64,000 nt of DNA from Anadara kagoshimensis (lineage: Eukaryota; Mollusca; Bivalvia; Arcoida; Arcidae): NCBI GenBank assembly GCA_021292105.1, contig CM037871.1:23060057-23124056 (forward strand), read 5' to 3'. Every line of letters starts with the position of its first letter. Position 1 is the first letter of the stretch. Shown in pieces: positions 2,501 through 35,138 of this stretch. The position numbers were made by a program, and so were the translations under genes. The notes under the pieces are model-generated. The model saw only the letters and a list, made by a program, of their open reading frames with translations. It ran no database searches and was not told the DNA's origin.

Positions 2501-4489
2501 AACAAGAGGCTCATGGGCCTGATACGCTCATCTGATAACTAATGGCTAGATGAAATATTTAAAGAAAACATAAATACTGAAACCCCAATGACTTTTTTCT
2601 TTACATCATAATGACCATTGTATCAATACCTACAACATTCTAATATATATGCCTATACAAAAAGTTAATAGTTTTCAAAATAATTAACCATTTCAGTATT
2701 GTTTCACAACTGTGACCTTGACCTTTGAACCCGTGACCTTTTTCTATACATCAAAATGCATTGTATCAATACCTACAACATTCTAATATACATGCCTATA
2801 CAAAAAGTTTATAGTTTTTTAGATAATTAACCATTTCGGTATTGTTTTGCATGTGTGACCTTGACCTTTGAACCCATGACCTTTTTCTATACAACAAAAT
2901 GTTCGTTGTATCAATACCTACAACAGTCTAATATGCATGCATTTCAGTATTGTTTCACATCTGTGACCTTGACCTTTGAACCCGTGACCTTTTTCTATAC
3001 ATCAAAATGCATTGTATCAATACCTACAACATTTTAATATTCATGATTATACAAAAAGTTTTATTTCCAAGATAATTAACTATTTCGGTATTGTTTCACA
3101 TCTGTGACCTTGACCTTTGAACCAATAACCTTTTTCTATACATCAAAATGATCATTGTATCAATACCTACAACATTCTAATGTACATACCTATACAAAAA
3201 GTTGATAGTTTTCAAGATAATTACCCATTTCGGTATTGTTTCGCATCTGTGACCTTGACCTTTAAATCAATGACCTTTTTCTATACATCAAAATGATCGT
3301 TGTATCTCAATACCTACAACATTAACATACATACCTATACAAAAAGTTTATAGTTTTCGAGATTATTAACCATTTCTGTATTGTTTTGCATCTGTGACCT
3401 TGACCTTTGAACCCGTGACCTTTTTCTATACATCAAAATGATCATTGTACCAATATCTACAACATTCTAATATTCATGCCTATACAAAAAGTTTATAGTT
3501 TTTAAGATAATAAACTAGTTTGGTATTGTTTAGCATCTGTGACCTTGACCTTTGAACCCATAACCTTTTTCTATACATCAAAATGCATTGTATCAATACC
3601 TAAAACATTCTAATATACATGCCTATACAAAAAGTTTATAGTTTTTGAGATAATTAACCATTTTGGTATTGTTTTGCATCTGTGACCTTGACCTTTGAAC
3701 CCATGACCTTTTTCTTTACAACAAAATGATCGTTGTATCAATACCTACAACATTCTAATATGCATGCCTATACAACAAATTTATAGTTTTCAAGATAATT
3801 AACAATTTCAGTATTGTTTTGCATCTGTGACCTTGACCTTTGAACCCATGACCTGTTTGTATACATATAATGATCGTTGTATCAATACCTACAACATTCT
3901 AATATCCATGCCTATACAAAAAGTTTATGGTTTTCAAGATAATTAACTATTTCCGTATTGTTTCACATCTGTGACCTTGACCTTTGAACCCATAACCTTT
4001 TTCTATACACCAAAATGATCATTGTATCAATACCTACAACATTCTAATGTACATAACTATACAAAAAGTTTATAGTTTTCAAGATAATTAACCATTTCGG
4101 TATTGTTTCGCATCTGTGCCCTTGACCTTTGTACCAATGACCTTTTTCTATACATCAAAATGATCGTTGTTTCAATACCTACAACATTCTTATATACATG
4201 CCTATACAAAAAGTTTACAGTTTTCGAGATAATTAACCATTTTGGTATTGTTTTGCATCTGTGACCTTGACATTTGAACCCATGACCTTTTTCTAGCATC
4301 AAAGTGATGGTTGTATCAATACCTACAACATATTAATATACATGCCTATACAAAAAGTTTATAGTTTTCCAAATAATAATGATTATCAGAGGTAAAAAAA
4401 TTAGGTCACGGCCTTCACAATTGACCTTGACCTTATTTTGAAGATACTAACACAAAGATGTCAAACCTATCGGTCAGGTGAGCTAAAAA
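2501..4489 (+). repeat. 145-bp-array repeat element, copy B
   Basis: The copy opens with AACAAGAGGCTCATGGGCC and a CTCATCTGATAACTAATGGC spacer. About twelve tandem monomers follow. The shared GTGACCTTGACCTTTGAACC core recurs at intervals of 141-146 bp, with one short 107-bp unit near 2860-2963. The copy ends with a short tail and CGGTCAGGTGAGCTAAAAA. The terminal GCTCACCTGA-like start and TCAGGTGAGC end are inverted repeats of each other. Most of the usual type I tail is deleted. Confidence 0.85.
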
Positions 4490-8500: not shown

Positions 8501-9764
8501 TTAGTTACTGTTCTACTACACCAATGGTGCTCTAAAAATCGGAAGAACTTAAGAAAGCACAACGTTTTAGTTTTCCTGCATGTCCAGAGTTCACATCATA
8601 TTTGTTCATTTTATGTGAAATAAAGTAATATGGCTTTATGAAAAGAAATTAAGGGTTGTAAAAACCATGGATTAAACTACTGACAACTTTAATCGGATAT
8701 CCACTGTAAAAACGATCTGCTAATAAGGATTTACAAGGTAAATAAATTTTATCTGAATGTTTTAAAACATCGTTTTTTCAGTTCTTTTGTTTAGATTTTG
8801 ATTTCAAGTTGTTCTTCTCGTCGATTTATTTTTTTTTTTTGATTCAAACTATAGAACTGGAAATAGTATTTAAATGAACATTGATCATGAAATTATCTGT
8901 CTTCGGAGACATATGGCACGTGAGAAGTGGAGTGTGTTCGGAAGATCGGAAGTATGTAGCAGAGATTCGAGAATAAAGCATGTCGTTTTGATATTTAACT
9001 GATAACTGAAATGTACAGGGTGTCATGATCATTTTAAAAGGGACAATGGTGTACTTGACTAAACTGGTCAGTCGCTACACTATGTGAATACATAATAAGC
9101 TTGGGCATTGGGTGTCAAACGCAGGCATGCCCCAAACACATGGCTAATTTGCATACGAACTACGGTATCGATATAGCCTACACGAGTCACAAATAATTTA
9201 TCAACATAGCCAATGAACTTGTAAATAAACTTCTTTTTTCAGTTTCGTATCACTTTTTGGGAATAATCTTTGATTTCTACTTTTTTGTCATGCATTCGCT
9301 ACCGGCAAACTGACGGGAAGCAATTTTAATACCAAATGAAAGCGGGAAAATCCTCGTGACGTATCACGTAATGAATATTAATGAACCAGGTCGGGATATC
9401 CCAAACACAAAATATTATTGCGCCGCACTGATACACACTTGCAAATTATACAAAAATAAAAACTAACATCGGCCTTTACCAACGAGGACCTCTCTTACTA
9501 CTTGGATACTAAAATACTCCTTGCAGTCAACACAATTCACTTTAATTACATCTTGACATTAAAGCATCTAACGAACTATTTCATTTCTCGAACGGATAAG
9601 TCAGAGTAGTTGTTTGGTGAATCGCTTTTAAGCCCTACGCCAATACTTCCAGAAGTAGTTCTTCCCTGTTCGTAAAAATGTAATAGTATGCAGTCAAAAT
9701 CAAGAGAAAAAACAATATTGGTTTCTACACCAACCGCTGACTGTAAATTTTTACTAAACAATCT
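8501..9764. other. No gene recognised
   Basis: Comparatively low-repeat DNA. Two minus-strand open frames (8844-9032 and 9576-9761) have no recognisable domain and no clear splice context, so I do not call them genes. Confidence 0.4.
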
Positions 9765-11201
9765 AACAAGAGGCCCACGCTCACCTGATAACTAATGGCT
9801 AGCTGATAGATTTCAAGAAAACATAAATACTGAAACCCCAATGACTTTTTTCTTTACATCATAATGACCGTTGTATCAATACCTACAACATTCTAATATA
9901 CATGCCTATACAAAAAGTTAATAGTTTTTAAGATAACTAACCATTTCAGTATTGTTTCGCATCTGTGACCTTGACCTTTGAACCCATGACCTTTTTCTAT
10001 ACATCAAAATGATCGTTGTATCAATACCTACAACATTCTAATATATATACCTGTACAAAAGTTTATAGTTTTTAAGATAATTAACCATTTCGGTATTGTT
10101 TTGCATCTGTGACCTTGACCTTTGACCCCATGACCTTTTTCTATACATCAAAATGACCGTTGTATTGATACCTACAACATTCTAATATACATGCCTATAC
10201 AAAGAGTTTATAGTTTTTAAGATAATTAACCATTTCGGTATTGTTTTGCATCTGTGACCTTGACCTTTGACCCCATGACCTTTTTCTATACATCAAAATG
10301 ACCGTTGTATTGATACCTACAACATTCTAATATACATGCATATACAAAAAGTTTATAGTTTTCGATATAATTAACCATTTTGGTATTGTTTCACATCTGT
10401 GACCTTGACCTTTGAACTCATGACCTTTTTCTATACATCAAAATGATTATTGCATCAATACCTACAACATTCCAATATACATGCCTATACAAAACGTTTA
10501 TAGTTTTCGATATAATTAACCATTTTGGTATTGTTTCACATCTGTGACCTTGACCTTTGAACTCATGACCTTTTTCTATACATCAAAATGATTATTGCAT
10601 CAATACCTACAACATTCCAATATACATGCCTATACAAAAAGTTTATGGTTTTCCAAATAATAATTATAATCAGAGGTAATAAAAAATTAGGTCACGGCCT
10701 TCACAATTGACCTTGACCTCATTTTGAAGATACTAACAAGAAGATGTCAAAACTGAAAACCCCATGTCATTATCTAGTCAAATAGTCAAGTTATAACAAT
10801 TTGAAGCTATTTTACGATTTTTTCAAAATTAAACGCAAAAACGCCTAACCCATTTTTTGTCCGAATTTCACAAAATGAACAAACTATAGGCTTAAGACCC
10901 TAGAGAAGCCAAATAACACATCAGATTTTTTCTCCAATCAATACTTTCGGAGAAGAAGATTTTTTTAAGATTTTTGCACCCCTAGGTCACCTTGACCTAG
11001 TTATTGTAGCCATGGCAACGCCACGAACAAATCTGAATTGCACCGGCCCATATATACTTCTCACCAAGTTTCATTGAAATCTGTTATGTATTTTCAGAGG
11101 AGATGTCAAAAATAGGTGTTAACGACGCACACACGCACGCACATACACACGCTGCGCTATGCCATAAACTCACATGACCTTTCGGTCAGGTGAGCTAAAA
11201 A
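9765..11201 (+). repeat. 145-bp-array repeat element, copy C (type I tail, near full length)
   Basis: It opens with AACAAGAGGCCCACGCTCACC, has a CTAATGGCTAGCTGATAG spacer, and then about six 145-bp monomers. The full type I tail follows: AGGTCACGGCCTTCACAATT, AACCCCATGTCATTATC, AACGCAAAAACGCC, the palindromic CCTAGGTCACCTTGACCTAG, a CACACGCACGCACATACACA stretch and ACCTTTCGGTCAGGTGAGC plus TAAAAA. Two adjacent monomers (about 10330-10480 and 10480-10630) are nearly identical, which suggests recent unequal exchange. Confidence 0.88.
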
Positions 11202-11330
11202 TGACTGGATAAACTATTTTTTAACATTACTGTGAAAATAATTTTAGTTTATAGTTTTTTGGGTTTTTTTAAATATTTGCTATTTGAGTAATTCTTATAT
11301 AGATATTTTTCATAAGATCATGTAAATAGA

Positions 11331-12034
11331 AACAAGAGGCCCATGGGCCTTAACGCTCACCTGAGGCTACGTACATATCTCATGCAGAGGTTCAATGGTC
11401 AATAACATTTATTAAAGAGAACTCCTTATTTTTAGCAGTAAGGCAGAATTAAATGCAAGGATTTTTGCAAATTAATCATACCTTGTCCCGAGAATGCTAC
11501 ATGTAATATATATATAGTCTAGCTACAATACATTATTTATAAGAGCTAAAAAAGTATAAAACTATGACCTTCATCTAGGCAATTACCTACAATATCGAAT
11601 ATACATGCCTATACAAAAAGTTAATAGTTTTCGAGATAATTAACCATTTCAGTATCCTTTCCCATCTGTAACCTTGACCTTAATCTATATATCAAAATGA
11701 TTGTTAAATCAACTCCTACAATATTCTAATATGCATGTTTATACAAAAAATTTATAGTTTTTGAGATAATTAACCATTTTGGTATTCTTTCACATCTGTG
11801 ACCTTGACCTTTGAATCCATGACCTTAATCTATATATCAAAATGATCGTTAAATCAATTCCTACAATATTGTATTATACATGTCTATACAAAAAGTTTAT
11901 AGTTTTGAGATAATGAACCATTTCAGTATTCTTTCGCATCTGTGACCTTGACCTTTGAATTCATGACATTAATCTATACATCAAAATGATTGTGAAATCA
12001 AAACCTACAATATTCTAGTATACATGTTTATACA

Positions 12035-12038
<4 letters not shown>
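11331..12038 (+). repeat. 145-bp-array repeat element, copy D, 5' half (split by LINE)
   Basis: It opens with AACAAGAGGCCCATGGGCC and a CTGAGGCTACGTACATATCT spacer, then monomers that stop in the middle of the ATACAAAAG motif where the poly-T of the LINE insertion begins. The missing half resumes at 19997, after the LINE. The whole element therefore spans 11331-12038 plus 20009-21202 and was one unit before the LINE arrived. Confidence 0.88.
12027..12038. repeat. Target-site duplication (left) of the LINE insertion
   Basis: TTTATACAAAAG here and at 19997-20008 is the same 12 bp. It directly flanks the poly-T tract on this side, as expected for target-primed reverse transcription of a minus-strand LINE. 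Confidence 0.8.
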
Positions 12039-12039
<1 letters not shown>

Positions 12040-12075
<36 letters not shown>

Positions 12076-12480: not shown

Positions 12481-12778
12481 GAGCTATAAGTAAGTTAATT
12501 TCCAGATGGATATTTAAGATTCTCCATACTGTCCCCCAACACATAAACATGCATATAGAAACATGGCATTAAGTAGAGATGATCTAAACACCAGCCTTTG
12601 AATAAAGCATGGCCTATATAATAATTTTACTATTATTATTATTACTATCACCATCATCATCATTATCACCATTATTATTATTAATAATAATAATAACAAC
12701 AATAATAACAATTTACAATGAGTTATATGTAACTGTTAAATATCACTATTATATATGACTATTATTGATAAACACTTC

Positions 12779-13866
12779 TTAGTTTTCATTAAAAAGATCC
12801 ATCCAAGATTTCCAGTATTTCTCAAAGATTTTCCATTTACAATTTTTGAACATGAGATATTTCTCAATATAGAACTGTTCTTTTAAATAATTCTGCAAGT
12901 TTAAAATATTGACTTCTTTACACTGGGTTTTCATTTTGAAAATGAAGTATTTGGTGTGGAGTATTATAATATTTGTTACTCTGTTTGCATTAAAAAGTGT
13001 GGTTTTTCCAAACAAAATAGAGAAGAAATCAAGATCAAGGTTGATATTTATTTTGTTTTTTATCCAATTTTGTAAGTCTTGCCATAAGATTTGTATACCG
13101 GTAGATGGACAGTAAAAACATATGCTCAATAGATTCTTTAACATTTTCACAATTTCTACAATTAATATCAGACAGTAGATTTCTTTTTGTTAGGCAAGAA
13201 TTTGTTTCAATAATTCTATAGAGAATTTTAAATGGAAACCAACGTAGTCTAGTGTTTTGTGAAATGTTGAAGGGTAATTTATAAATAATTGACCATTGGT
13301 GTTTTGAAAAAGAAATACCTTGGTCTTTCCATCTTAATTGGCTAGTGTGTGATAGTCTTATTTGTTGTAAAAACTTGATAAACATCACTGCATCCTTTTG
13401 GAGATTTTAGTAAAATACTAAGATATTTAGGAATATGACAAAATGGATGTCTTGTTTGAGTATCATGATAGTTAAATTGATAATTTTTTAGATAACTTTT
13501 TATTGAAGCTATTAAACTGTTAAACTCTAGAAAATGTGTATTTATGTTGAAACTATTTGAAAATGCTTCATAATTATAAAGTACGTACTTCTTCAGTATT
13601 AAATAAGTCAGCTATAATTCTAATGCCATTTTTATAATAGTGTGATAACTGGATGATTTTTGTATGTTAAGTATGAATGATTTTAGAATGAATGATTTTT
13701 GGAATGAATGGATGAGTTTAGTATGAATGATTTTTGGAATGAATGGCCTTAACATGTCCTCCTTTAATGTTAGATTTTTAAGTAGTTTGTTGCTGAATTT
13801 TAAAGTTAAAATGTTTATCATCAGCCATGACATTAATGGGGTCATTATTTAAAGAGTTAAAGGAGT
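12779..13866 (-). pseudogene. LINE ORF2 C-terminal fragment (copy B)
   Basis: Read on the minus strand across several frames this is the C-terminal third of an L1-like ORF2 protein. Visible pieces are HYYKNGIRIIADLF (13590-13650), YNYEAF and FNINTHFLEFNSLIASIKSY, then QLRWKDQGIS, KLPFNISQNTRLRWFPFKIL and a zinc-knuckle-like CRNCENVKESIEHMF near 13130-13170. In that motif the expected final Cys is replaced by Ser. At least two frameshifts break it. The segment 13680-13745 is a local duplication built on GAATGATTTTTGGAATGAAT. It overlaps in content with the end of the ORF2 copy at 15075-15485 but differs in sequence, so it is a separate, 5'-truncated copy. Confidence 0.75.
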
Positions 13867-13869
13867 AAC

Positions 13870-15065
13870 AGTTATTATTATTCAGATTTTAAATGTTTTA
13901 TTGTACTGACGGCAATAGTGTCATATTATTTACTATGTCTATGTCACGTTGACTTCTAAACGTAAACAAAGATCGATTTTATTATGTTTACTTCATAATC
14001 ACAAAGTTTTGTATTTGCTGAAGTACTTACATTAATGTAGTTTCATTGTGTTGCAAATATTGCTAACTGGAAAGACTTTTGTTGGTGCTTAAGCAATTTT
14101 TTTATTACTGTTGTTAAACACATGTTTACAGTTGCCGCCATTGTTGATCGGTGACCTTACAAGCGAGTACTTCCGGTTTACTGTCAGATTTTTCGTCTGC
14201 ATAAGTCCAGAGTTTATAAATTTGTAAAATCGAGTAAAAATCAGAATTTATGTAATAAGATGATTAAGTCATAATTTTTGGATAGAAATTGTATTTATAT
14301 GTTTATCATTCCGTACAAGTCCGTTTTCATGTATTTATAGCAATATTAATAAGTTACAGAACATTTTCTGTGACCCCTGTTACAACCCCAGTACAATCCC
14401 TGTTTCAACCCCTGTTTCAGATCCCAGTTTCCAGTATCAAACCCCTGTTTCACTGAAGTTGTCATAGTAACTGACTGGAGTATAAAAAGGAACACGGATT
14501 TGAAACTGGGCTCTTTGTCTTCAGAACAACCAGACACTACACATTATTTTGATTTTACTAGTTTAGGTACTTATTTTATTTTTGAGCCTATTTAATTTTA
14601 GAGAATATTTTTGGTTTAAAAGAGTATTTAAATAATTATCTATTTGACTAAAATTCCAGACAATTTTCTGGAAACCTGTCAAATTAAATCATATTGAAAT
14701 TCATTTTTATAAGGGAAATATGGACAATGTCAGATTTGACACATTTGTTATTTTAGGGTTATTTTAGGAGTCAAAAAGGGAAATTCTAATATTTAAACTT
14801 AACCTACGTATTGAAGAATCTCTTGAAATATATCTACAGTATTTTGGCACATTTAGATAAATTTTCTAAATCTATACCAGAGTACTGAACTATTTATTTC
14901 TTTAAAATATTATTAAGTTGGTTTAGTCAGTGTGAACTTTGGGTCTTTAATAACCAGTAATATTTATCTGATACAAATTGTTCTAATTTATTTGTGAATT
15001 AATGTGAAGCTGTATCTTATGCTGATTATTTATTTGTGATATTGGTTATTTAATAAATCGTTTAA
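13870..15065. other. LTR-like insertion (possible solo LTR)
   Basis: This ~1.2-kb block separates two LINE fragments and has no coding potential. On the plus strand it contains four CCCTGTTTCA-like motifs (14380-14455), a TATA box GTATAAAAAGG at about 14478 with a plausible start some 30 bp later, and an AATAAA near the right edge (about 15052). That is the layout of a retroelement LTR. TG...CA ends with a target duplication could not be fixed, so the class is uncertain. Confidence 0.35.
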
Positions 15066-15069
15066 ACAG

Positions 15070-18000
15070 TCAAATTATATGAATCCATTATTTGTTTTAT
15101 TTAAGTATGTAACATAAACCACTTGGTCGTTACAATAGTTATTGTAGTAAATAGTGTGGTTTTTCACTTTTATGTCTTTGTTATACCAAATCTCTGTAGA
15201 TAAAATATCATTTGCACTTTTTGGAGAAAAATTATTGCAGTAGTCATAGAATGACTTAAAAACATCTCTCCAGAAATTATTTTTTATAATTTCTGTTAAA
15301 TTCATAATGTATTCAGATCCCAATTTAAAAAGGTTTTCCAGTTTACATTTACATGTATACAACAAAAGCTTATACCATTTTGAATTTGTAACAAAAAGTC
15401 TTCTGATCCAGGATACCTTCAAAGATTTCATAAATAAAAAGACATTTGTCATTTTCACCCCACCATTTTCATAACTCTGGATCATGATATCTCTTTTAAC
15501 CCTGTCTATATTTGACTGCCATACAAATTAAAAAAATATGGTGTTAAGAGTGTTTACAAATGTTTCTGGAGGATTAGGCAAACACGGGAGTAAATAAGTT
15601 AATTTTGATATAATTAAGGATTTAAGAATTGTAATTCTTCCCAAGACTGTAAGATTTCTTCTACTCCAAGATTTTAACATTTTTTTTTTATTTCTATAAG
15701 TTGCTTATTAAAATTTAATGATTCCATTTCATTGATGCTGACTGAAAAAGTAATACCTAAGAGTGTAAACTTATGTGCACCCCAATATAATTTCCATCTT
15801 GAATGATGATAGACATCTTTTGAAAACTTCTTACTACCAATCCAAATAACATGTGTTTTTGAGAAATTAATTTTTAGTCCTGATATCTTTGCATAATATT
15901 CCAGAACATCAAGTGCTGCATGTAAAGATTTGGCAGATCCATCTAGAATAAGTGACGTATCATCAGTATATTGTGATATATTGTACATTTCATTATCAAT
16001 ACAGATACCTTTTATATTCTTATTGTTTCTAATATAAATACCTAGAATTTCTGCACATAGAAGAAAGATGTAAGGACTCAGGGGATCTCCTTGTCTACAA
16101 CCTCTATTTAGAGTAAAGAATTTTGATAGAAAACCACTTTGTGTGACTGAAGATGTAATGTTATTATAGAAAGTACTTATCCAGTGTTTTATGGAGTTGC
16201 CAAAGTTAAAAAAATCTAATACTTGTGAGATAAATTTCCAAGAGATTGAGTCAAAAGCTTTTTCAAAGTCAATAAGAAGTAGCATACCTGGTATGTTATT
16301 ATTATCTGTATAATTCATTATATCATAAATCAAACGAATATTTTCCCCAATATATCTACCTTTTATAAACCCTGTTTGATCAGGATGGATAAGAGTATCT
16401 AAAACTGTTTTAATTCTCTCTGCTATACAGCCTGATGCAATTTTATATGAAGTACTTATTGGTCGCCAGTTTTTTAAATATTGTTTAGGTTTATCTCCCT
16501 TTGGAATACAATTTATAATACCCCTTTTTTGTGTAACTGATAATTCACCATGTGTGTAACCATAGTTTATTGATCTAACTAAAAAAATACCTAAATCTTT
16601 CCAGAAAAATTTGTAATATTCGGTAGTATAGCCATCAGATCCAGGACTTTTATTATTTTTCATTTTTTTTAGGTATGACAAAGCTTCCTCACATGTTAAT
16701 TCTCCATTTAAACTTTCTGACTGTTCATTATTCAGTTTTGTGACATTATATTTATCAATACTACTTAACCAGTCATTACATGAATCTTCTGAATTGCATG
16801 AGTAAAAATTAGGGTAAAAAAGTTCAATCTCAGATAGGATTTCAAATTGTTCAACGATAATGTTGCAATCCCCTTTATCAATTTTCGGAATTGTCTTGTT
16901 TGTGAAATTTCTATTTTCTAAATTGCAGAAATATCTTGATGGTTTTTCTCCTTCATCAATCCAGTTTGCCTTAGATCGCAGTATATGACCTCTCATTTTT
17001 TCTTCTCTTAGTTTTTTTAGTTCATTTTTTTGCTTTCCAATAACTCAGGATTTGGTAAGAAGTCTTGTTTTTCTAAGAAATCTATTTCATTTATCAAAAG
17101 TTCAATTGATGAGTTAGTATTTTTTTTTAATAAACGAAGAGTAGGAAATAGTTTTTCCTCTTATCTCCATTAGTAGTGTTTCAAAAAAAATGTTGATCAT
17201 TTATTAAAAATTTTAAGTCCGAATTGGAGATTTGATCAATATTGTCTAAATTATACACAGGCAGAGCATATTGTTGTTTTACTTTTTTAATGACAGTTTT
17301 TATAGTTTCAACATAGACTTTATCTTTGAGTAGGGAGTTATTCATTTTCCAAAGACCTTTTCCACGAACAAAGTCATTTAATTTTACTGATAAAACTACT
17401 GTAGAATGATCTGTCCTATACCCTAATTCAATATTACATTGTTTGATACTGGGCATAAAATTTGTAGAAACCAAGAAGAAATCAAGACGGGATTGTTTTT
17501 GGGGGTCTTTTTCCTCCAAGTATAACACTTTAGATTTGGATAAAACTCTCTAAATGGATCGGTAAGTGAAAATTCCTCTATTATATCTCTAACTTTAATG
17601 GTAGCCTTAGGATTATTTTGATGCTTATAATTAAAAGTGTCAAGTTCTTGATTGAGTACTAGATTAAAGTCACCACAAATAATGTATGTTTGGTCTTCAA
17701 ATATGTTAAGGATATTATGTATTTCATCATAAAATCTTGGGTTATCCTCATTTGGACCATAAATATTAATTAGGGACAAAGGCTTATCATTAATTGTTAA
17801 TTTCAAAGCTAGCATATTTCCAGATTGATCTTTTTTTGTTTCTAAAACTTTATATGCAAAGTCATTTCTGAATAGGATGGCTACACCACGGGAATTTGAT
17901 TTAAATGAATTAAAGTAACAGTCAAAGCCCCACTGAGTCCTTACATAGTTCTCTATTTCAGTTACAAAGTGTGTATCTTGCAGACAACATATGTTGTATT

Positions 18001-18115
18001 TTTTATAATGTAAATGATTAAAAACATCCCTGCGTTTATGACCATCACCCAAGCCTTGACAATTAATAGTGGCAATTGTTAATTCACCCATGTTTTTTAA
18101 TTTTAGCACAATCTA
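15070..18115 (-). pseudogene. L1-like LINE ORF2 (endonuclease + reverse transcriptase), broken
   Basis: The N-terminal apurinic-endonuclease-like domain lies at 17423-18109: TINCQGLGDG, LQDTHF, INIYGPN and GDFNLVLN are visible, and RLDFFLVS and TDHSTV continue in a shifted frame at 17181-17528. The reverse transcriptase lies at 15674-16996 (440 codons), with SPGSDG, DFEKAFDS (about residues 243-250), GCRQGDPLSP (299-308) and YTDD (343-346) in place of the usual F/Y-A-D-D. The C-terminal part at 15075-15485 contains WIRRLF and FWRDVFKSFYDY. Frameshifts near 17500, 17050-17180 and 15500-15670 make it non-functional. It would nick target DNA and copy the element RNA. It is 3' incomplete, ending next to the LTR-like block. 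Confidence 0.9.
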
Positions 18116-19023
18116 ATATATACATTAATATGACCGTGTCAACTCTATTTACAAAAAACACACAACACAAAAACACATGGGGACAAGACATATAGAACAT
18201 ATAAACAATGGACCAACGTGGCCGACTTGACTGGTTTGTGAGGTAATAGTTACCTGACCACATTTCAGACTAAGGACTCTAGATGTTTTACTATTTCGGA
18301 CAAAATCTATAAGAATACTAACATAACTGTCGTACAAACCTCAACATTTTAAGTTTTCAAATATAAAAAACAAAACAGCAAATGAAACGAATCGGAAAAA
18401 ATCCGGTATCGTCACGATAAATCCTGACCTGGCGAAAGCTTAACACCAAGCTAACATATAAGAGTCGAGAGCTCTGCCACGGAGCCAAGACATAAATAGC
18501 TAGTGAACGAGAGTTAGAAATTAACCAAATCTGCACTAATTAGTTTGTTAGCATAGTGTCAAACCTTCGACCGGTCTGTACTGTCTCAAATGAATGGAGC
18601 ATTTAATTTGGTAAATAAGTTTCCAGGCATTTCTTTTAACCACATGCTTAAATGATTTGCTTAAGAGAACAGTGCCTACAAAAATGCTTTCTTTTGGCCA
18701 ACTAAAAAGTTTATATGGTGTGGATACGAGGTAGGGATAAAAATATAAACATATAACGTAATTACAACACGAGACATAGAATTTTTTTCATCATATTCTG
18801 TAAACGTATTTATTTTCACGTGTATTAATTTTCGAGCTATAAGATCCCAAGTTTTTCCAACATGCACTATAACACAGTAAGCACCATAATTCTTTCGCTC
18901 TGCATTAATTTTCGCACAAAACCACATGGCCGAGGAACAAGCGAAAATTAGTACGTCGCGAAAAACAAATACGTTCACAGTATATAGTCTCATAATTACA
19001 ATATAACAGAATATCATATATAG
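18116..19023. other. LINE ORF1-ORF2 spacer with an embedded palindromic MITE-like repeat
   Basis: No convincing gene. Between about 18795 and 18985 there is a short palindromic repeat: CTGTAAACGTATTTATTTTC on the left is matched in reverse complement by AAACAAATACGTTCACAG on the right, with GCGAAAATTAAT-type motifs inside. A minus-strand open frame over it (18676-19017) is a product of the repeat. The rest is probably LINE spacer. Confidence 0.5.
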
Positions 19024-19996
19024 TCACGTTTTCAATAAACATATAAATGTCATCAACTGTAAGGAGTCAGTATTATTTTTATTAAGGACCAGTTTTTCGA
19101 CGATTTTTTCCATCAAACTGAATCTTTTCGGACCAATATGGTTACCACTAAACCAACGGGTAATTACAAATGCGGCGTTTGCAATGTCATTTGTCTCAAG
19201 GAATTTTAACAATTTCCGACCAGTTCCGAACTCTCCGTCATCTTGGTATCCTTTCTGAATGTTTCCCGCGCTATCCACGTACCTATAAACTAATATATTA
19301 TGGTGAGCATCAGTATGACCAGGAGTAGTGACGACTTTTTTGTACACTTTTCTAACGTCATTCAATGATCCCACTTTTGCGGCGTTTCCGATAAATTTGT
19401 TTCCGGCTTCGACAACAGTGTCGCTGGTGGTTAGGGAGATTTTATTTAGTTTTTCAGTTTCTTTTTGATCTTGTGTCAGGATATCCTCCGCTTTCGGAGT
19501 AGAGACTTTGTCTCTGTATTGTGAATTGTCTGGAAACAAAAGTTTCTCGCCCACTACACGTGTCTTAATATTTTGTTCATGATATGATTTATTTATTTCA
19601 AATAATTGTTTTCTGCGTTCAACTATTTCTGTAGGCGACTGTGGGGTGATATTAAAAGGCAGTTCAGTACGTGCATCTCTTTTCTCCTTTTGCGCTTTCA
19701 AAATTTCGGCTTTTTTCTCTAAATTTACTAATTTGCCTGTTATTGTTCTGGGTTTACCATCTTTTCTTAGTGTCGGACTATTGCGGTGAATACGTACAAA
19801 TTCAACATCAACATTAAGATGGTGTTTTATTGCTGCGGGGACACTTAACATCAAATTCTCACCCTTATTCTCAACAAAATTATGGATTAAAATATTGTCA
19901 CGCATTGACCTCCCTTTTAAGTTCAATATTTCTTTATTTTGTTCCGTTACTTTTCTGTCAAGCTTAATTACCACACCTTTAAGGAGTTCTACGTCT
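19024..19996 (-). CDS. LINE ORF1 protein with C-terminal IMPACT/UPF0029 domain (5' truncated)
   Basis: An open frame of at least 316 codons that runs unbroken to the insertion edge, so its start is lost; the first shown codon is GTG at 19974. Order: coiled coil (about residues 1-20), L1 ORF1 RRM-like domain (about 24-100, SMRDNILIHNF, FVRIHRNSP), ORF1 C-terminal domain (about 103-155), then an extra domain at about 183-298. The extra part shows NKFIGNAAKV, AHHNILVYRY, DDGEFGTGRKLL and FVITRWFSGNHIGPKRF. These match the core of the IMPACT/YigZ (UPF0029) family, namely AtHNIyAYR, DDGE-GtGrlLL and VVVsRWyGG-LGP-RF. L1 ORF1 proteins bind element RNA; IMPACT proteins regulate GCN2 in translation control. 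The fused domain may link the element RNP to ribosomes or stress signalling, which is inference. Unlike ORF2 it has no frameshift. Confidence 0.85.
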
Positions 19997-20008
19997 TTTA
20001 TACAAAAG
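19997..20008. repeat. Target-site duplication (right) of the LINE insertion
   Basis: The same 12 bp as at 12027-12038, lying between the ORF1 5' edge and the resumed 145-bp monomer. Confidence 0.8.
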
Positions 20009-21202
20009 TTAATAGTTTTCGAGATAATTAACCATTTTGGTATTGATTTGCATCTGTGACCTTGACCTTTGAACCCATGACCTTAATCTATATATCAAAG
20101 TGATCGTTAAATTAATTCCTACCATATTCTAATACACATGTCTATACAAAAAGTAAATAGTTTTCTAGATAAATAACCATTTCGGTATTCTTTCGCATCT
20201 GTGACCTTGACCTTTGAACCCATGACCTTTATCGATATATCAAAATTATCATTGTGCCATTACCTACAATATTCTAATATGTATGCCTATACAAAAAGTT
20301 AATAGTTTTGCAGATAATCAACTATAACGGTAATAGTTGTGCATCCTTGACCTTGACCTTTGAACTCATGACCTTGATCTATGTATCAAAATGATCGTCA
20401 TGTCAATACCTACAATTAACTGAAAATCCCATGCCATTATCATCTAAAATGTTTAAAAAATAGCATTTTTTATCAAAGGTCAAAAACAGGGACATGACCT
20501 TGACTTTTGACCTTGACATCTTTTGGAAGAAAATAGCAAGACAAGATCAACAGTGAAAACTCCATACAATTATCTTCAGCCGTTATTGAGTTATAACAAT
20601 AAATGTCTCATTTTCAGAATTACATAATTTTACGCAAAAAAAAGCATTTTTTAACAAAGGTCAAAAACAGGGACATGACCTTGACTTTTGACCTTGACAT
20701 CTTTTGGAAGATAATAGCAAGACAAGATCAACAGTGAAAACTCCATACAATTATCTTCAGCCGTTATTGAGTTATAACAATAAATGTCTCATTTTCAAAA
20801 TTACATAATTTTACGCAAAAAACGCGTAACCTATTTTTCGTTCAAATTTCATGAAAAACACAATTTTAATGTTCACAGGTATGCTGAATCTAAATATCCA
20901 ATCAAAATTTGCCTGCACCTTTTGGTTTCAGAGAAGAAGATTTTTTTGTCTTTTTGCTATTTTTAGTAACAGTGGCCATCTTATTGGGCGTGGCCAAACT
21001 CCGAACACAACTTTAAAAGGCTGTTACCCAGACATGATAATCGCCAAGTTTCATCAAATTTGGCCCAGTAGTTTTGGAGGAGAAGAATAAAATGTAAAGT
21101 TTACACACGACGGACGACGAACGACGAACGACGCACGACGCACGACGGACGGTGATAGATTGCAATAGCTCGTCTGAGCCTTTGGCTCAGGTGAGCTAAA
21201 AA
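20009..21202 (+). repeat. 145-bp-array repeat element, copy D, 3' half (type II tail)
   Basis: Monomers resume in phase with the left half, then a different (type II) tail follows. It has an internal direct duplication of about 195 bp: AAAAACAGGGACATGACCTT occurs near 20483 and again near 20662. The tail continues with GTGGCCATCTTATTGGGCGT, a GACGGACGACGAACGACG simple stretch (21109-21150), and the end GAGCCTTTGGCTCAGGTGAG plus CTAAAAA. Confidence 0.88.
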
Positions 21203-22559: not shown

Positions 22560-25140
22560 GATGTTATCTTCTCCATATATAAATAGACATCTGATTCTGA
22601 CACAACTTCTGACTACTGCTTCTTCCACTCCTCATTTCTCTTCCTCCATATCCACTGAGATGCCATCTCTGTCTGTGTACTGACAGCTTCCACCAGTTTC
22701 TTCCGTTCTCTTCCTGTCACACCTATAATCCTCAATGCCTTCCACAGTGACTGCCCTACAAACCCTCTACATCCAACTTCTACTGGTAAGCATCATACTC
22801 TCCACCCCTGGTGTGACAGTCTTTTACAAGCTGTTGGTACTTGCTTTTCTTTCTCTCATATGTTTCTTCTATCCTGTCTTCGCAAGGTACAGTTAATTCT
22901 ACCAAGACAACATGCTTTGTAGATCTAGACCAAATACAACATCTGGACGCATAGAAGTCTGCACTATATCTGATGGAATTTCCATTCTTCCATTGATGCC
23001 AACTTTCATCTTCCAATCTCCTGCTGTTGCCAAGATACCATTTCTTTCGGCCTTTCTCTTAGGTATGCTTCCACCTTTGACAAAGTTCACAAAAATTGGT
23101 CCTTTCACCATCCTGTGTTCTTTCTTCCTTTCTTTCTCCAGACTATCTGCAATAACCTCACTTTGGTAACTTTAAACTCTTCGACTACAGACTTCAATGG
23201 CAACTTTAGCTTTGCACCTGTGCTGTATAAACCCAAACTGCTAAAACTTCTAGGCACTCCTAACAATCTCCGTAAAAAGTTGTTAATCATCCTTTGTATT
23301 GCTTCTACTGCTGACATTGAAATTTCATACACCAGTAATGGCCACAGAACTCTGGGAAGTACTCCATATTGGTATATATAGACCTTGAACTTTCCCGGTA
23401 GGCCACACTTATCCACAGTTGTCATCCACTCCTCTATTTGTGTTCTTACATTTTTCACGTTGACTACATCTTTTAGGGTGCTGTCAAACCATTTCCCTAA
23501 ACTCTTTACTGATTTATCTGATACTGTTTGCTATGGTATCTTCACCTATTACAAACTTTATATCTTTGACCTTTCCCTTCTTCAATACTAAATTCCTTAA
23601 CTTAGATGGCTTGAATCGCATTTTTTGCCCATGATATAACCTTCTCCAAATCTTCTAATGCCCATCTTCCTTCCACTACCGTCTTGGTGGTAACCGTCAT
23701 ATCACCCATGAAAGCTCCAGATACCATCATTTGTCTTTGGCTAGTTCTTTCCACTGATTTCACTAAAAGATTCATTGCTGCTGAGAAAAGTATCACAGAG
23801 ATTGTGCAGCCTGTTAAAATTCCAACTGCTAACCTCTGCCAGTCAGTTATATAGTCTTTTACTGAGAATCTCATCTACACATTGTCAAAATACTCTTGAT
23901 TCATTCCACAAATCTTCACTGGTACATGGTATCTCTGTAATGTTAACTGCATCAGTTTTATGTCGTATTGAACTGTATGCATTTGCCAAGTCCAGCCACA
24001 GCACTGCCAGGTCACCCTAGCTTTCTTTAGCTTCTTTAATTATCTGTGTTAGAACGCTTGTATGTTCTATGCGTCCCGATATTCCTGGAACACCTCCTTT
24101 CTGTACTGATATATCCACATACTTATTGTCCAACATACGTTCGTTCGTTTCACCACAATTGCTAGAAAGATCTTGCCCTCCGCATTCAACAAGGATATTG
24201 TTCTGAACTGCCCCAGGTCCTCTGCATGTTCCTACTTTGGTATGAAACACCCCTCTGTTCTATACCAACTATCTACCATTCTTTGTCTTATCCACACTAC
24301 TTTTAATAATTTCCATAACACTCTTGTGACTTAAGGGCAATATTTATATATTTTATATGATATTCCATTTGGTCCAGTAGCTGATGATGCCCTTGTCGTT
24401 TGAATTATGTTGGATACTTCCTTCAGATTTGGTTCCTCCATTTCAAACCGTATTGTTGGTTCTTCTGGACTGAGCAATTTCTCAAATTCCTTAAGTTCTT
24501 CATCCCTTCTGGCATCATTATAGGTTTCTTTCAGATAGCTTTCTACTTCCTCCTTGTCACTGTCTAATCTTTCAGAACCTTTATTTCCCAATAACTTTGT
24601 TGTAAACTGATAGGGGTTTGATGTGAACTGAGCTCTTTTTTTTTCTCTATCTTTGTGTCTTCTGAGACTTCTCTCTGCTCTTCTTAATGTTTTCAATCTC
24701 TTTCTTAGATCAGTTCTTAGTTTAGACAGCCCTTCCCCGTCGTTTGATTCTTTGTACCTTTTCTTAAGCCTTCGGAGATCCTTCCTTAAATTTCTTATCT
24801 CTACTGTTTGTCTATTCTCCTTTGGTTGACCCTTTGGCCTTTTTCTTCCTTCTTCTGTCCAAAATCTATCTGCTCCTATAGTGTGAATGATTGTAGACAT
24901 TGACTCTAACTTTTGGTCTACACTTCCTCCTAAGGTGCTGATCAGTATTCTGTTACAATCCTCATCAAACTCCTCCCATGCCTTCCTGTTATTACTTGGT
25001 GGCCGTTTCACCTTCTTTCTTCTCTCACCAATAGTGTTGTGTCTACTCTTTGCTGTCCTATTTGTTGTCACAATTCCTGATTGCAGCTTCCCTCCTCCTC
25101 CTCTGACACATAAAGGCTGTGGTTGCTGTGGTGTTCTTCC
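22560..25140 (-). pseudogene. LINE with restriction-like endonuclease (R2/Hero-type), 5' truncated and broken
   Basis: Minus-strand fragments in order: a basic N-terminal linker (24331-25130, ending SSATGPNGISYKIYKYCP, RT block 1); the RT core with NKYVDISVQKGGVPGISGRIEH (24017-24250), ILTGCTISVILFSAAMN and AFMGDM (23602-23874); a thumb region with GLPGKFKVYIYQYGVLPRVLW and FLRRLLGVPRS (23105-23458); and a C-terminal endonuclease with RPDVV and, after a frameshift, HVVLVELTVPCEDRIEE (22780-23100). The family site is FMDD, so AFMGDM has lost a catalytic Asp. Several frameshifts and a 5' truncation add to the decay. The PD...ELT motif places it among LINEs with a restriction-like endonuclease. 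It is inserted in the gene of transposon 1. Confidence 0.85.
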
Positions 25141-25149
25141 TGAATACAA

Positions 25150-25939
25150 ACTAATAAACGTAATGGAGCTATCCTCAAACAAGAAGAGGCAGATACGAGA
25201 CTTATATTGCATGCAATGAATGCTTACAGAGAAGGATATGCAAGATTGGTTGTTAAATGTCGTGATACTGATGTATTTCTATTGCTAATACACCATCTTG
25301 TTAAAATGTGGATGGTTTCTGGTACTTCAAACAAAATTAAGGACTACGCATCCCATTTAGTAGCACATCAATTACCTGTATCTATTCGATTAAACATTCT
25401 TGGATTTCATGCTTTGACGGGGTGCGACACAACATCTTCCTTTTCGGGAATCAGTAAGAAAAATTGCTGGAAACAATTTTTGGCGCATCCAGAACTTCTG
25501 TCTGGTGTTGGGCGAGATGGAAATCCAGAATTAGCCAAAAAATTTGTCTGCCTCTTAAATTGACTGAATGAGGTTACTGGCATTGATGATGCAAGACGTA
25601 TACTCTTTGTCAAGGCCAAGCGAGCTTTAGAAATGCTTCCACCGACAAAGGATGCTTTAGAACTCCATGTAGCAAGATCCAATTATCAGGCGACTGTGGA
25701 TTCGTGCCAATATTGCAATTATTGGCACCACTGACAACAAACCAACTGATACAATTGGCTGGGTAGATTCTCCTGATGGACTGGTAGTTGTATGGAAAAG
25801 ATTACCTGCAGTTCCTGTAGCTTGTGTTCAACTGATGAGTTGTGGTTGTCAACAGAAATGCAGCACGGCTAGGTGCAAATGTTTTAAAAACAATTTAAAT
25901 TGCACACCTTCATGTGCATGTGATATGGTTGACTGTTGA
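25150..25939 (+). pseudogene. FEN1/PIN-like nuclease plus CXC-domain transposon protein (C-terminal part)
   Basis: The plus-strand frame begins KQEEADTRLILHA (about 25177), continues with VVKCRDTDVFLLLIHHL and FHALTGCDTTSSFSGISKK (about 25400-25470), then ARSNYQATV and, after a frameshift near 25688, GWVDSPDGLVVVWKRLPAVP and a cysteine-rich end (SCGCQQKCSTARCKCF, NLNCTPSCACDMVDC). The first part has the spacing of FEN1/XPG-type PIN nucleases: E-x-D, then D-x-D, then GCDxxxxFxGIxKK at the start of a helix-hairpin-helix. The end resembles a tesmin/TSO1-like CXC DNA-binding domain. A TGA at 25561 and the frameshift disable it. It lies inside the TIRs of transposon 1, so it is probably a transposon gene. 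The catalytic role is inferred from motifs only. Confidence 0.75.
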
Positions 25940-32417: not shown

Positions 32418-35138
32418 CTGAAATATAAAACCAAAGACAGGTATTAAAATTTCAGGATTTGTGAAGTGATCTGAAATGTAAAACCAATAGACACATGAGA
32501 CAGGAGACAATTAGACAAAATGTTACTTGAAGCGGCATTTTTAGTAAAAGCTTTTCTAACATAATTCTAGGGTGCTGAATTCAACAGGAGGCCCAATTGG
32601 CCTGATAGGCTCACCTGATAAACAAGAATAGAATTCCAGGGTCCCCCGCCTGTCAAGCAGTATACTAGTATACTGTATAACTCCATAACTCATAAGTCCC
32701 ATAACTCCAACAAAAAGTATCGACCAAGGCTACTTTTTGACCAAGGCTGATTTAGTCAAGTTTTGGATAAAACAGAGTCATTTATGTGGTCAAAAGTCCC
32801 ATAACTCCAACAGAAAGTATCGACCAATGCTGATTTTCGAACTTGACCAAGGTATTAGTGGTATAAACATTTGGTATAAATTTAATGAAAATCTGTCAAA
32901 ATTTGTAGGCATGAGAGCGCTTACAAGGTAAAGTTTTGGATAAAACAGAGTCATTATTGTGGTCAAAGTCCCATAACTCCAACAAAAAGTATCGACCATT
33001 GCTGATTTTCGAACTTGACCAAGGTATTAGTGGTATAAACATTTGGTATAAATTTAATGAAAATCCGTCAAAATTTGTAGGCATGAGAGCGCTTACAAGG
33101 TCAAGTTTTGGATAAAACAGAGTCATTATTGTGGTCAAAGTCCCATAACTCCAACAAAAAGTATTGACAAATGCTAATTTTCAAACTTGACCAAGGTAAT
33201 AGTGGTATACACATTTGGTATAAATTTAATGAAAATCCGTCAAAATTTGTAGGCATGAGAGCGCTTACAAAAAGTGTGACGGACGGACACACGGACACAC
33301 AGACCCACGGACACACGGACGGACGCCCGGCATTTCTATGTCCCTTCTCCGCGTTGCGGCGGGGGACAATAATGGTTAGCCGATACATTTCAAGAAAATA
33401 TAAATACTGAAACCCCAATGCCAAAATCTTTCATTATAGTAACAATTTGAGGGTAAAATAGTAAAAACAAAAGTACAAAACCAAACAAGAGGCCCATGGG
33501 CCTTATACGCTCACCTGATAACTAATGGCTAGCTGATAGATTTAAAGAAAACATAAATACTAAACCCCAATGAATTTTTTCTTTACATCAAAATGATCAT
33601 TGCATCAATACCTACAACATTCCAATATACATGCCTATACAAAACTTTTATAGTTTTCAAGATAATTAACCATTTCAGTATTGTTTTCGCATCTGTGACC
33701 TTGACCTTTGAACCCATGACCTTTTTTTATACCTCAAAATGATCATTGTATCAATACCTACAACATTCTAATATACATGCCTATACAAAAAGTTTATAGT
33801 TTTCGAGATAATTAACCATTTCGGTATTGATTCGCATCTGTGACCTTGACCTTTGAACCCATGACCTTTTTCTATACATCAAAATGATCATTGTATCAAT
33901 ACCTACAACATTCTAATATACATGCCTATACAAAAAGTTTATAGTTTTCGAGATAATTAACCATTTCGGTATTGATTCGCATCTGTGACCTTGACCTTTT
34001 AACCCATGACCTTTTTCTATACATCAAAATGATTGTTGTATCAATACCTACAACATTCTAATATACATGCCTATACAAAAAGTTTATAGTTTTCGAGATA
34101 ATTAACCATTTCGGTATTGTCTCGCATCTGTGACCTTGACCTTTGAACCCATGACCTTTTTCTATACATCAAAATGATCGTTGTATCAATACCTACAACA
34201 TTCTAATATACATGCCTATACAAAAAGTTTATAGTTTTCGAGATAATTAAACATTTCCGTATTGTTTCGCATCTGTGACCTTGACCTTTGAACCCATGAC
34301 CTCTTTCTGTACATCAAAATGATCGTTGTATCAATACCTACAGCATTCTAATATACATGCCTATACAAAAAGTTTATAGTTTTCGAGATAATTAAACATT
34401 TCCGTATTGTTTCGCATCTGTGACCTTGACCTTTGAACCCATGACCTTTTTCTATATATCAAAATGATCGTTGTATCAATACCTACAACATTCTAATATA
34501 AATGCCTATACAAAAAGTTTATAGTTTTCGAGATAAGTAACCATTTTGGTATTGTTTTACATCTGTGACCTTGACCTTTGAACCCATGACCTTTTTCTAT
34601 ACACCAAAATGATTGTTGTATCAATACCTACAACATTCTAATATACATGCCTATACAAAAAGTTTATAGTTTTCGAGATAATAATTATAATCAGAGGTAA
34701 AAAAAATTAGGTCACGACCTTCATAATTGACCTCAATTTGAAGATACTAACAAGAAGATGTCAAAACTGAAAACCCCATGTCATTATCTGGCCAAATAGT
34801 CAAGTTATAACAATTTGAAGCTATTTTACGATTTTTTCAAAATTAAACGCAAAAACGCGTAACCTATTTTTTGTCAGAATTTCACAAAATGAACAAACTA
34901 TAGGCTAAAGACCCTAGAGAAGCCAAATATCACATCAGATTTTTTCTCTAATCAATACTTTCGGAGAAGAAGATTTTTTAAGATTTTTGCACCCCTAGGT
35001 CACCTTGACCTAGTTATGGTAGCCATGGCAACACCACGAACAAATTTGAATTGCACCGACCAAGACATGCATCTGACCAAGTCTCGTTGAAATCTGCCCA
35101 GTGGTTCGTGAGAAGAAGATGAAAATGTAAAAGTTTAC

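Follow-up and report, generated by a model that had tools for sequence, protein, structure and literature searches.

An L1-like LINE family in bivalves with an IMPACT/Yih1-type (UPF0029) domain at the C terminus of its ORF1 protein

In a 64,000-nucleotide stretch of Anadara kagoshimensis DNA (hereafter the window), we found an L1-like LINE copy, dead and 5'-truncated, whose type II ORF1 protein ends in an IMPACT/Yih1-type 'ancient' (UPF0029) domain, a reading to which we assign a probability of about 0.93. The domain, recognised by both sequence and fold, occurs across a large and diverse LINE family in which it is linked to ORF2, is held under purifying selection and has been copied recently within this genome.

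ORF1 of the window copy ends in a UPF0029 domain

The open reading frame listing of the 64-kb window contains a stop-to-stop frame of 352 codons on the minus strand (20082..19024), within which an L1-type ORF1, comprising the end of a coiled coil, an RRM and a CTD, is joined to a UPF0029/IMPACT domain without an internal stop (19024-19998). A sequence-only reading made earlier had described this unbroken frame, its motifs and its coordinates correctly, leaving the strand unstated, and had likewise noted that ORF1 lacks frameshifts while ORF2 is broken, as we also found. Its assignment of the C-terminal part to the IMPACT/YigZ family, for which it had proposed a profile search and a structure prediction, was borne out by both. 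A Pfam search placed PF01205 at residues 229-330 of the window protein (E 3e-19; score 69.5 bits, cut-off 27), and an AlphaFold model of the protein (pLDDT 89) gave PDB fold matches of the UPF0029 part to 2cve, 1vi7 and 6bqi, so that membership of UPF0029 is carried by a PF01205 score above cut-off together with an IMPACT/YigZ fold. When the PDB was searched by sequence with the window protein, only the IMPACT homolog 6bqi matched convincingly, at E 4e-10; the next-ranked match, at E 0.81, did not.

Residues 1-167 of the model match the human L1 ORF1p fold, with a helix at residues 2-28, and the fold matches of the two AlphaFold models that we made support both domain identities. The layout is that of a type II (L1) ORF1, in which a coiled coil is followed by one RRM and a CTD; of the coiled coil only the last part is present in this 5'-truncated copy. 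Pfam's L1 ORF1 model, PF02994 (Transposase_22), did not match the window protein, in which UPF0029 was the sole Pfam match at E up to 1, and a profile of the family matched L1 ORF1p chains in the PDB (2ldy, E 0.0045; 2yko, E 0.012). With E allowed up to 1, Pfam gave no RWD match for the window protein or for four full-length ORF1s of the same genome.

The tblastn alignments of relatives begin at ~19998, and the DNA from 19999 on is a 145-bp tandem array; the codons of the frame upstream of ~19998 are array DNA that is open by chance. Judged from this start of homology against the array, some 110 N-terminal residues are missing from the window copy, and with them the start codon and most of the coiled coil. 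The open frame of such a dead copy is not by itself evidence of selection, which comes instead from comparison across the family.

Flanks and ORF2 of the window copy

The marks of target-primed insertion are all present at the window copy (Table 1), namely a target-site duplication, a 3' poly(A) tail and 5' truncation, and 47 array alignments cross the join of the rejoined empty site, including units of both flanking arrays. The exact junctions fit a single insertion, though the tandem-array flanks resemble each other anyway. ORF2 contains an endonuclease and a reverse transcriptase (RT) that is nearest to human L1 ORF2p among solved chains, as in an L1-like LINE: the five best PDB chains for the window RT score 2e-48 to 2e-47, of which four bear the name LINE-1 ORF2 protein and the fifth RNA-directed DNA polymerase, and R2 comes next at 1e-20.

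The long spacer between ORF1 and ORF2, together with a TTA-rich stretch after ORF2 that could be an inner tail, might suggest nested elements, with ORF2 coming from another LINE inserted downstream of ORF1. We rejected this arrangement as very improbable, because no inner-end repeat exceeds what random pairs give (the longest between possible inner ends is 10 nt) and the spacer is common to other copies. It is 83% identical to that of locus L021 over 946 columns and matches that of L012 in two pieces of 278 and 50 nt at 93-94% identity; moreover, ORF1 precedes ORF2 at 30 of the 30 best loci.

The 145-bp tandem repeat lies at about ten sites in the window, one of them inverted, often beside shared flanking sequence, and is probably part of a mobile element. 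Broken frames at 22600-25300 on the minus strand resemble another reverse-transcriptase element, with an RVT_1 match at 23602-23874 (E 0.0014) that falls below the cut-off.

Table 1. Coordinates of the LINE copy, its flanks and the 145-bp repeat in the window
Feature	Position	Strand	Basis
5'-truncated LINE ORF1, stop codon at 19024	19024..19998	-	frame and alignments of relatives
Last part of ORF1 coiled coil, rest missing by 5' truncation	19900..19998	-	tblastn start ~19998; helix 2-28 in model
ORF1 RRM, approximate boundary	19672..19899	-	
ORF1 CTD, approximate boundary	19447..19671	-	AlphaFold model, L1 ORF1p match over residues 1-167
UPF0029/IMPACT 'ancient' domain, ORF1 C terminus	19093..19398	-	PF01205 E 3e-19; folds 2cve, 1vi7, 6bqi
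ORF1-ORF2 spacer, ~930 nt, native to the family	18092..19023	-	match to L021 and L012 spacers
ORF2 start and endonuclease, interrupted	17423..18091	-	Exo_endo_phos E 3.6e-8; ATG read from sequence
ORF2 reverse transcriptase fragment	15674..17044	-	RVT_1 E 4.9e-33; best PDB chains are L1 ORF2 proteins
Remaining ORF2, frame-shifted, apparent insertion ~13.4-15.1 kb	12770..15673	-	boundaries from reading frames only
Poly(A) tail, 35 nt (poly(T) on + strand)	12040..12074	-	
Target-site duplication, 3' side, 12 nt	12027..12038	.	
Target-site duplication, 5' side, 12 nt, ~2 nt overlap with element end	19997..20008	.	
145-bp tandem array, target DNA, 3' side	11584..12050	.	
145-bp tandem array, target DNA, 5' side	19999..20416	.	
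145-bp repeat, other sites	1262-1743, 2585-4452, 9838-10775, 33567-34789, 37244-39456, 41097-41449, 47983-48645, 57921-58704		

The domain recurs across a LINE family of the same genome

Searching the species' own assembly (1.115 Gb) with ORF1 gave at least 116 match rows, 116 of 42,636 candidates having been scored; this count includes the window and takes a few loci twice. A frame of at least 380 residues without an internal stop underlies 36 of the 116 rows, and in all 36 the match enters UPF0029, reaching query residue 316 or beyond in 33 and residues 288-296 in three (the domain spans 229-330). As a check for ORF1s lacking the domain, we looked at the 10 rows that stop short of residue 229. 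PF01205 lies directly downstream on the same strand in seven of these and was found in fetched DNA for L081 and L082; L083 (8-1901), an ORF1 front part 62% identical to P0002, has no UPF0029 in the next 1.2 kb and is either a deletion or a variant without the domain. Searching the assembly for PF01205 returned at least 150 matches (150 of 275 candidates scored). One PF01205 match, L042 on contig C22, is a bacterial YigZ amid bacterial-looking genes at 29% GC, a scaffold stretch that is probably contaminant or symbiont DNA.

ORF2 lies downstream on the same strand at every one of the 30 best ORF1 loci (L002-L031, window included), with the endonuclease within a 1.5-kb flank in 19 and further downstream in 10 more, and with an RT match ~3.2 kb downstream of ORF1 at the last, L007. 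The same holds for nine of ten distant ORF1 loci (30-36% identical), the tenth, L073, having no ORF2 within ~3 kb. At L007 a second CTD-UPF0029 copy (2456-2896), 49% identical to the window, directly follows the first. For the reverse comparison, an RT search of the genome returned at least 93 matches (93 of 5,691 candidates scored), and we inspected the upstream DNA of seven ORF2 loci with no UPF0029 listed upstream. Four of them (L074, L075, L076 and L078) match UPF0029-bearing subfamilies up to a junction, like 5'-truncated copies; L079 and L080 have no recognisable ORF1, their longest frames being 150 and 124 codons, and the L077 stretch has no endonuclease. No ORF2 of the family was seen with a different intact ORF1 in this small sample of seven loci. 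Protein identities of 99-100% between copies on different contigs (L026/L029, L015/L025, L006/L009, L065/L067 and L069/L070) indicate recent copying, and thus activity, of the family.

Relatives in other bivalves

A protein search found 46 relatives of the window ORF1, and a profile search that scored the 7994 candidates sharing most words found at least 105, of which 66 have PF01205 in a precomputed column. Compared with full-length members, 14 of the 39 relatives without PF01205 run 1-54 residues into UPF0029 and then stop or change, and the other 25 end or diverge earlier; many of the 39 are short or odd-tailed, as would be expected of broken copies. Relatives with the domain come from six named bivalves, Saccostrea cucullata, S. 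echinata, Ostrea edulis, Crassostrea virginica, Pinctada imbricata and Tegillarca granosa, with T. granosa and P. imbricata belonging to different orders of Pteriomorphia. One T. granosa protein is 90% identical over 73% of the window protein, and UPF0029 is still present in distant relatives (P0089, P0091, P0094, P0097 and P0098) that are 27-32% identical to the window. Two alignment counts are biased by construction: alignment A1 (the window and 33 of the 46 protein-search relatives, the 13 without PF01205 being left out) shows UPF0029 in 34 of 34 because its rows were chosen for PF01205, and alignment A3, with 46 of 46, was built from proteins with PF01205 only, plus 13 genome loci and the window. 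The Pfam scan of these 46 members covers 25 of 97 families in its listing.

Seen alone, the window copy, which is broken and adjoins a tandem array, could be taken for a chance junction, an assembly error or a LINE that has landed in a host IMPACT gene. We rejected this as vanishingly unlikely because the layout recurs across loci and species, at many places in this genome and in oysters and a pearl oyster; the concern of the sequence-only reading that the fusion might be confined to one copy thereby falls away.

Among the relatives, no gene model fuses an ORF1 of the family to an RT, and the sole one of 553-1759 residues is P0047, a T. granosa gene model that mixes ORF1 with a GPCR. A scan of viral contigs gave 15 pattern matches with no relative among them, and a scan of genome contigs gave one distant relative, L001. 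This lies in a bacterial single-cell record (Epulopiscium; 9581-11996) and is a LINE with an endonuclease ORF2 and a coiled coil-RRM-CTD ORF1 without UPF0029, probably fish-host DNA.

Selection on the domain and its origin

We compared 26 ORF1s by Nei-Gojobori counts; the pairs are interdependent, and where pS is saturated pN/pS makes constraint look weaker than it is. For UPF0029, pS exceeded 0.3 in 317 of 325 pairs, with pN below pS in all 317 of these and below half of pS in 130, and median pN/pS was 0.53, next to 0.54 for the RRM and 0.51 for the CTD. In eight sister-like pairs, UPF0029 had pS of 0.77-1.00 and pN of 0.11-0.30; constraint was weakest, at 0.39, in the window-L003 pair, in keeping with decay of the window copy. 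Between subfamilies synonymous sites are saturated, yet UPF0029 has changed as little in protein sequence as the RRM, which places the domain under purifying selection. UPF0029 distances track those of the RRM and CTD (Mantel r 0.78 each, p 0.001), and the domain appears to have been inherited together with both.

The UPF0029 domain is found from bacteria to animals. The family profile matched Yih1 at 8e-20 versus 0.081 and 0.12 for YigZ proteins, and the bacterial YigZ of L042 gave the reverse order (2cve 9e-19, 1vi7 4e-15, Yih1 5e-4). Judged by these sequence matches, the LINE domain was likely captured from a eukaryotic IMPACT gene.

Spacers and exchange of ORF1 between subfamilies

The ORF1-ORF2 spacers measure 217-2328 nt (37 rows, some loci listed twice), long for a two-ORF LINE. 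From position 3445 of L011, within the spacer, onward, L011 is 97-98% identical in DNA to L006/L013, yet the ORF1s of L011 and L006 are only 51% identical. The sharp change in identity was seen at ~3445 of L011 against L006+L032 and L013+L035, and at ~3783 of L064 against L066, a pair with 91% identity on the ORF2 side and 71% over ORF1. Both partners carry UPF0029 in the L011-L006/L013 and L064/L066 comparisons, and the breaks fit an exchange of ORF1 between LINE subfamilies near the ORF1/ORF2 border. An apparent ORF1/ORF2 discordance of L004 and L028 was dropped, their ORF1s being 96% shared with L003 and L010 and their spacers nearly the same; their low endonuclease identity looks like decay.

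A stretch of ~270 nt upstream of ORF2 is 68-84% identical between subfamilies with saturated synonymous sites in an upstream alignment made without L039. It occurs at L011, L014/L015/L020, L022/L027, L030, L032 and L035 and is a candidate small ORF or control element; in L015, L022 and L030, though not in L011 or L032, it includes an open frame about 85-105 codons long whose residues are similar. RNAalifold gave a spacer fold of -12.4 kcal/mol from five rows, with a column-shuffle z of -11, but this shuffle destroys neighbour order, so that we draw no conclusion from the fold.

Discussion

The bivalve family shares with human L1 ORF1p (2yko, 2ykp, 2ykq, 2ldy) a long coiled coil, one RRM and a CTD, followed by an L1-like ORF2, and differs from it in the extra C-terminal UPF0029, the long ORF1-ORF2 spacer and a divergence too great for Pfam's L1 ORF1 model. 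With IMPACT/Yih1 (6bqi), to which it is closer in sequence than to bacterial YigZ, it has in common the fold and loop motifs of the ancient domain; unlike IMPACT/Yih1, the LINE protein has no RWD that we could find, and its domain is fused to an RNA-binding retrotransposon protein. Proteins of the YigZ family (1vi7, 2cve) have the same UPF0029 fold, placed N-terminally, but are bacterial and match more weakly in sequence (E 0.081, 0.12), and their own C-terminal domain is not seen in the LINE. The available portions of work on ORF1 diversity (PMC4120745, PMC3905857) recognise five ORF1 types, describe PHD and esterase domains as additions and point to signs that ORF1s have been exchanged. The CR1/L2 ORF1s described there resemble the bivalve family in the addition of a domain and in ORF1 exchange between lineages, whereas the bivalve family has another domain, a C-terminal place for it and an L1-like ORF2. 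In agreement with the sequence-only reading, which knew of no such ORF1 type, we found no description of an ORF1 with a UPF0029/IMPACT/YigZ domain in the literature searched, which lay outside subscription papers and repeat databases; 'UPF0029' is absent from the main text of a bivalve transposon survey (PMC10294476), and no word starting 'UPF' occurs in a gastropod study (PMC11203168). Uptake of cell-type domains by ORF1, such as PHD and esterase, is known, and a translation-regulator domain in ORF1 is apparently new to the literature searched.

L1 ORF1p trimerises via its coiled coil. A trimer of the bivalve protein would show three ancient domains beside its RNA-binding part, and the conserved loops of these domains may bind an old, widely shared partner, most likely translation machinery or nearby RNA. 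Such binding could keep newly made ORF1p on the translating RNA of the element itself and so aid RNP assembly in cis. The LINE kept the ancient domain with its loops; the old binding face is presumably still in use, and for an RNA-packaging protein the best-suited partner would be one linked to translation or RNA. A ribosome- or RNA-linked tether is our first-choice mechanism, albeit a tentative one, and it is no more than possible that the LINE lineage captured a host translation-regulator domain to act on the ribosome or translation machinery, whether by holding the RNP on its own translating RNA or by tuning translation. In favour of the tether, the D-D-G-E-x-G-x-G-R and R..G..R-F loops are among the best-kept residues of the LINE domain, and the available text of PMC4503747 places such invariant loops and residues in a cluster on one face of Yih1/YigZ. 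Two points tell against it: the mean net charge of the domain is near neutral (+1.3), with no sign of a strong RNA-binding surface, and the Yih1 ribosome-binding region, as described in the accessible part of its source, overlaps a linker missing in the LINEs, which makes the tether less likely.

Charge also bears on a second reading, in which the domain gives ORF1p an additional nucleic-acid-binding or chaperone module unconnected with ribosomes. Its place beside the RRM and CTD in an RNA-packaging protein, and its evolution at their pace, would suit such a module, but with a mean of +1.3 against +6.0 for the RRM we consider this rather doubtful. The function and partner of the Yih1 ancient domain are called unknown in the available portions of PMC4503747 and PMC7140605, and these also report that Yih1 binds actin. 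Accessible text further describes a Yih1 fragment, 133-258, that is mostly ancient domain and still pulled down Cdc28, although residues 68-132, which are not part of the ancient domain, hold the major Cdc28 determinant. Binding of the LINE domain to another host protein, such as a CDK, actin or one yet to be found, serving traffic, stability or cell-cycle timing, is on this balance rather unlikely.

The sequence-only reading had invoked IMPACT's competition for GCN1, by which the domain would bind GCN1, keep GCN2 off and damp the stress response, so that the element's RNA would still be translated during stress. Three points speak for it: the LINE domain belongs to the eukaryotic IMPACT type; Yih1 and IMPACT, when overexpressed, vie with GCN2 for GCN1 (available text of PMC4503747); and the Yih1 regions sufficient for GCN1 binding span the linker in the part of the source at hand, so that the RWD may not be the whole contact. 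As written, however, the proposal is not supported. According to the available portions of PMC4503747 and PMC7140605, Yih1 with substitutions in RWD helix H3 binds GCN1 less well and no longer inhibits GCN2, and overexpression of the RWD domain by itself is enough for inhibition; with no RWD matched in the window protein or the four full-length ORF1s, we regard this activity as improbable for the LINE.

If the tether is correct, a retrotransposon would be engaging translation in a new way, and the UPF0029 partner would belong to the translation machinery. Abundance and recent activity in this genome make the family amenable to testing, and its diverged, selected versions are natural variants for finding the UPF0029 partner. 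Public annotation is affected as well, with transposon proteins carrying the name of a host gene product: the LINE ORF1 proteins P0024, P0032, P0034, P0070 and P0093 appear in public gene models as 'protein IMPACT homolog' or 'IMPACT-like'.
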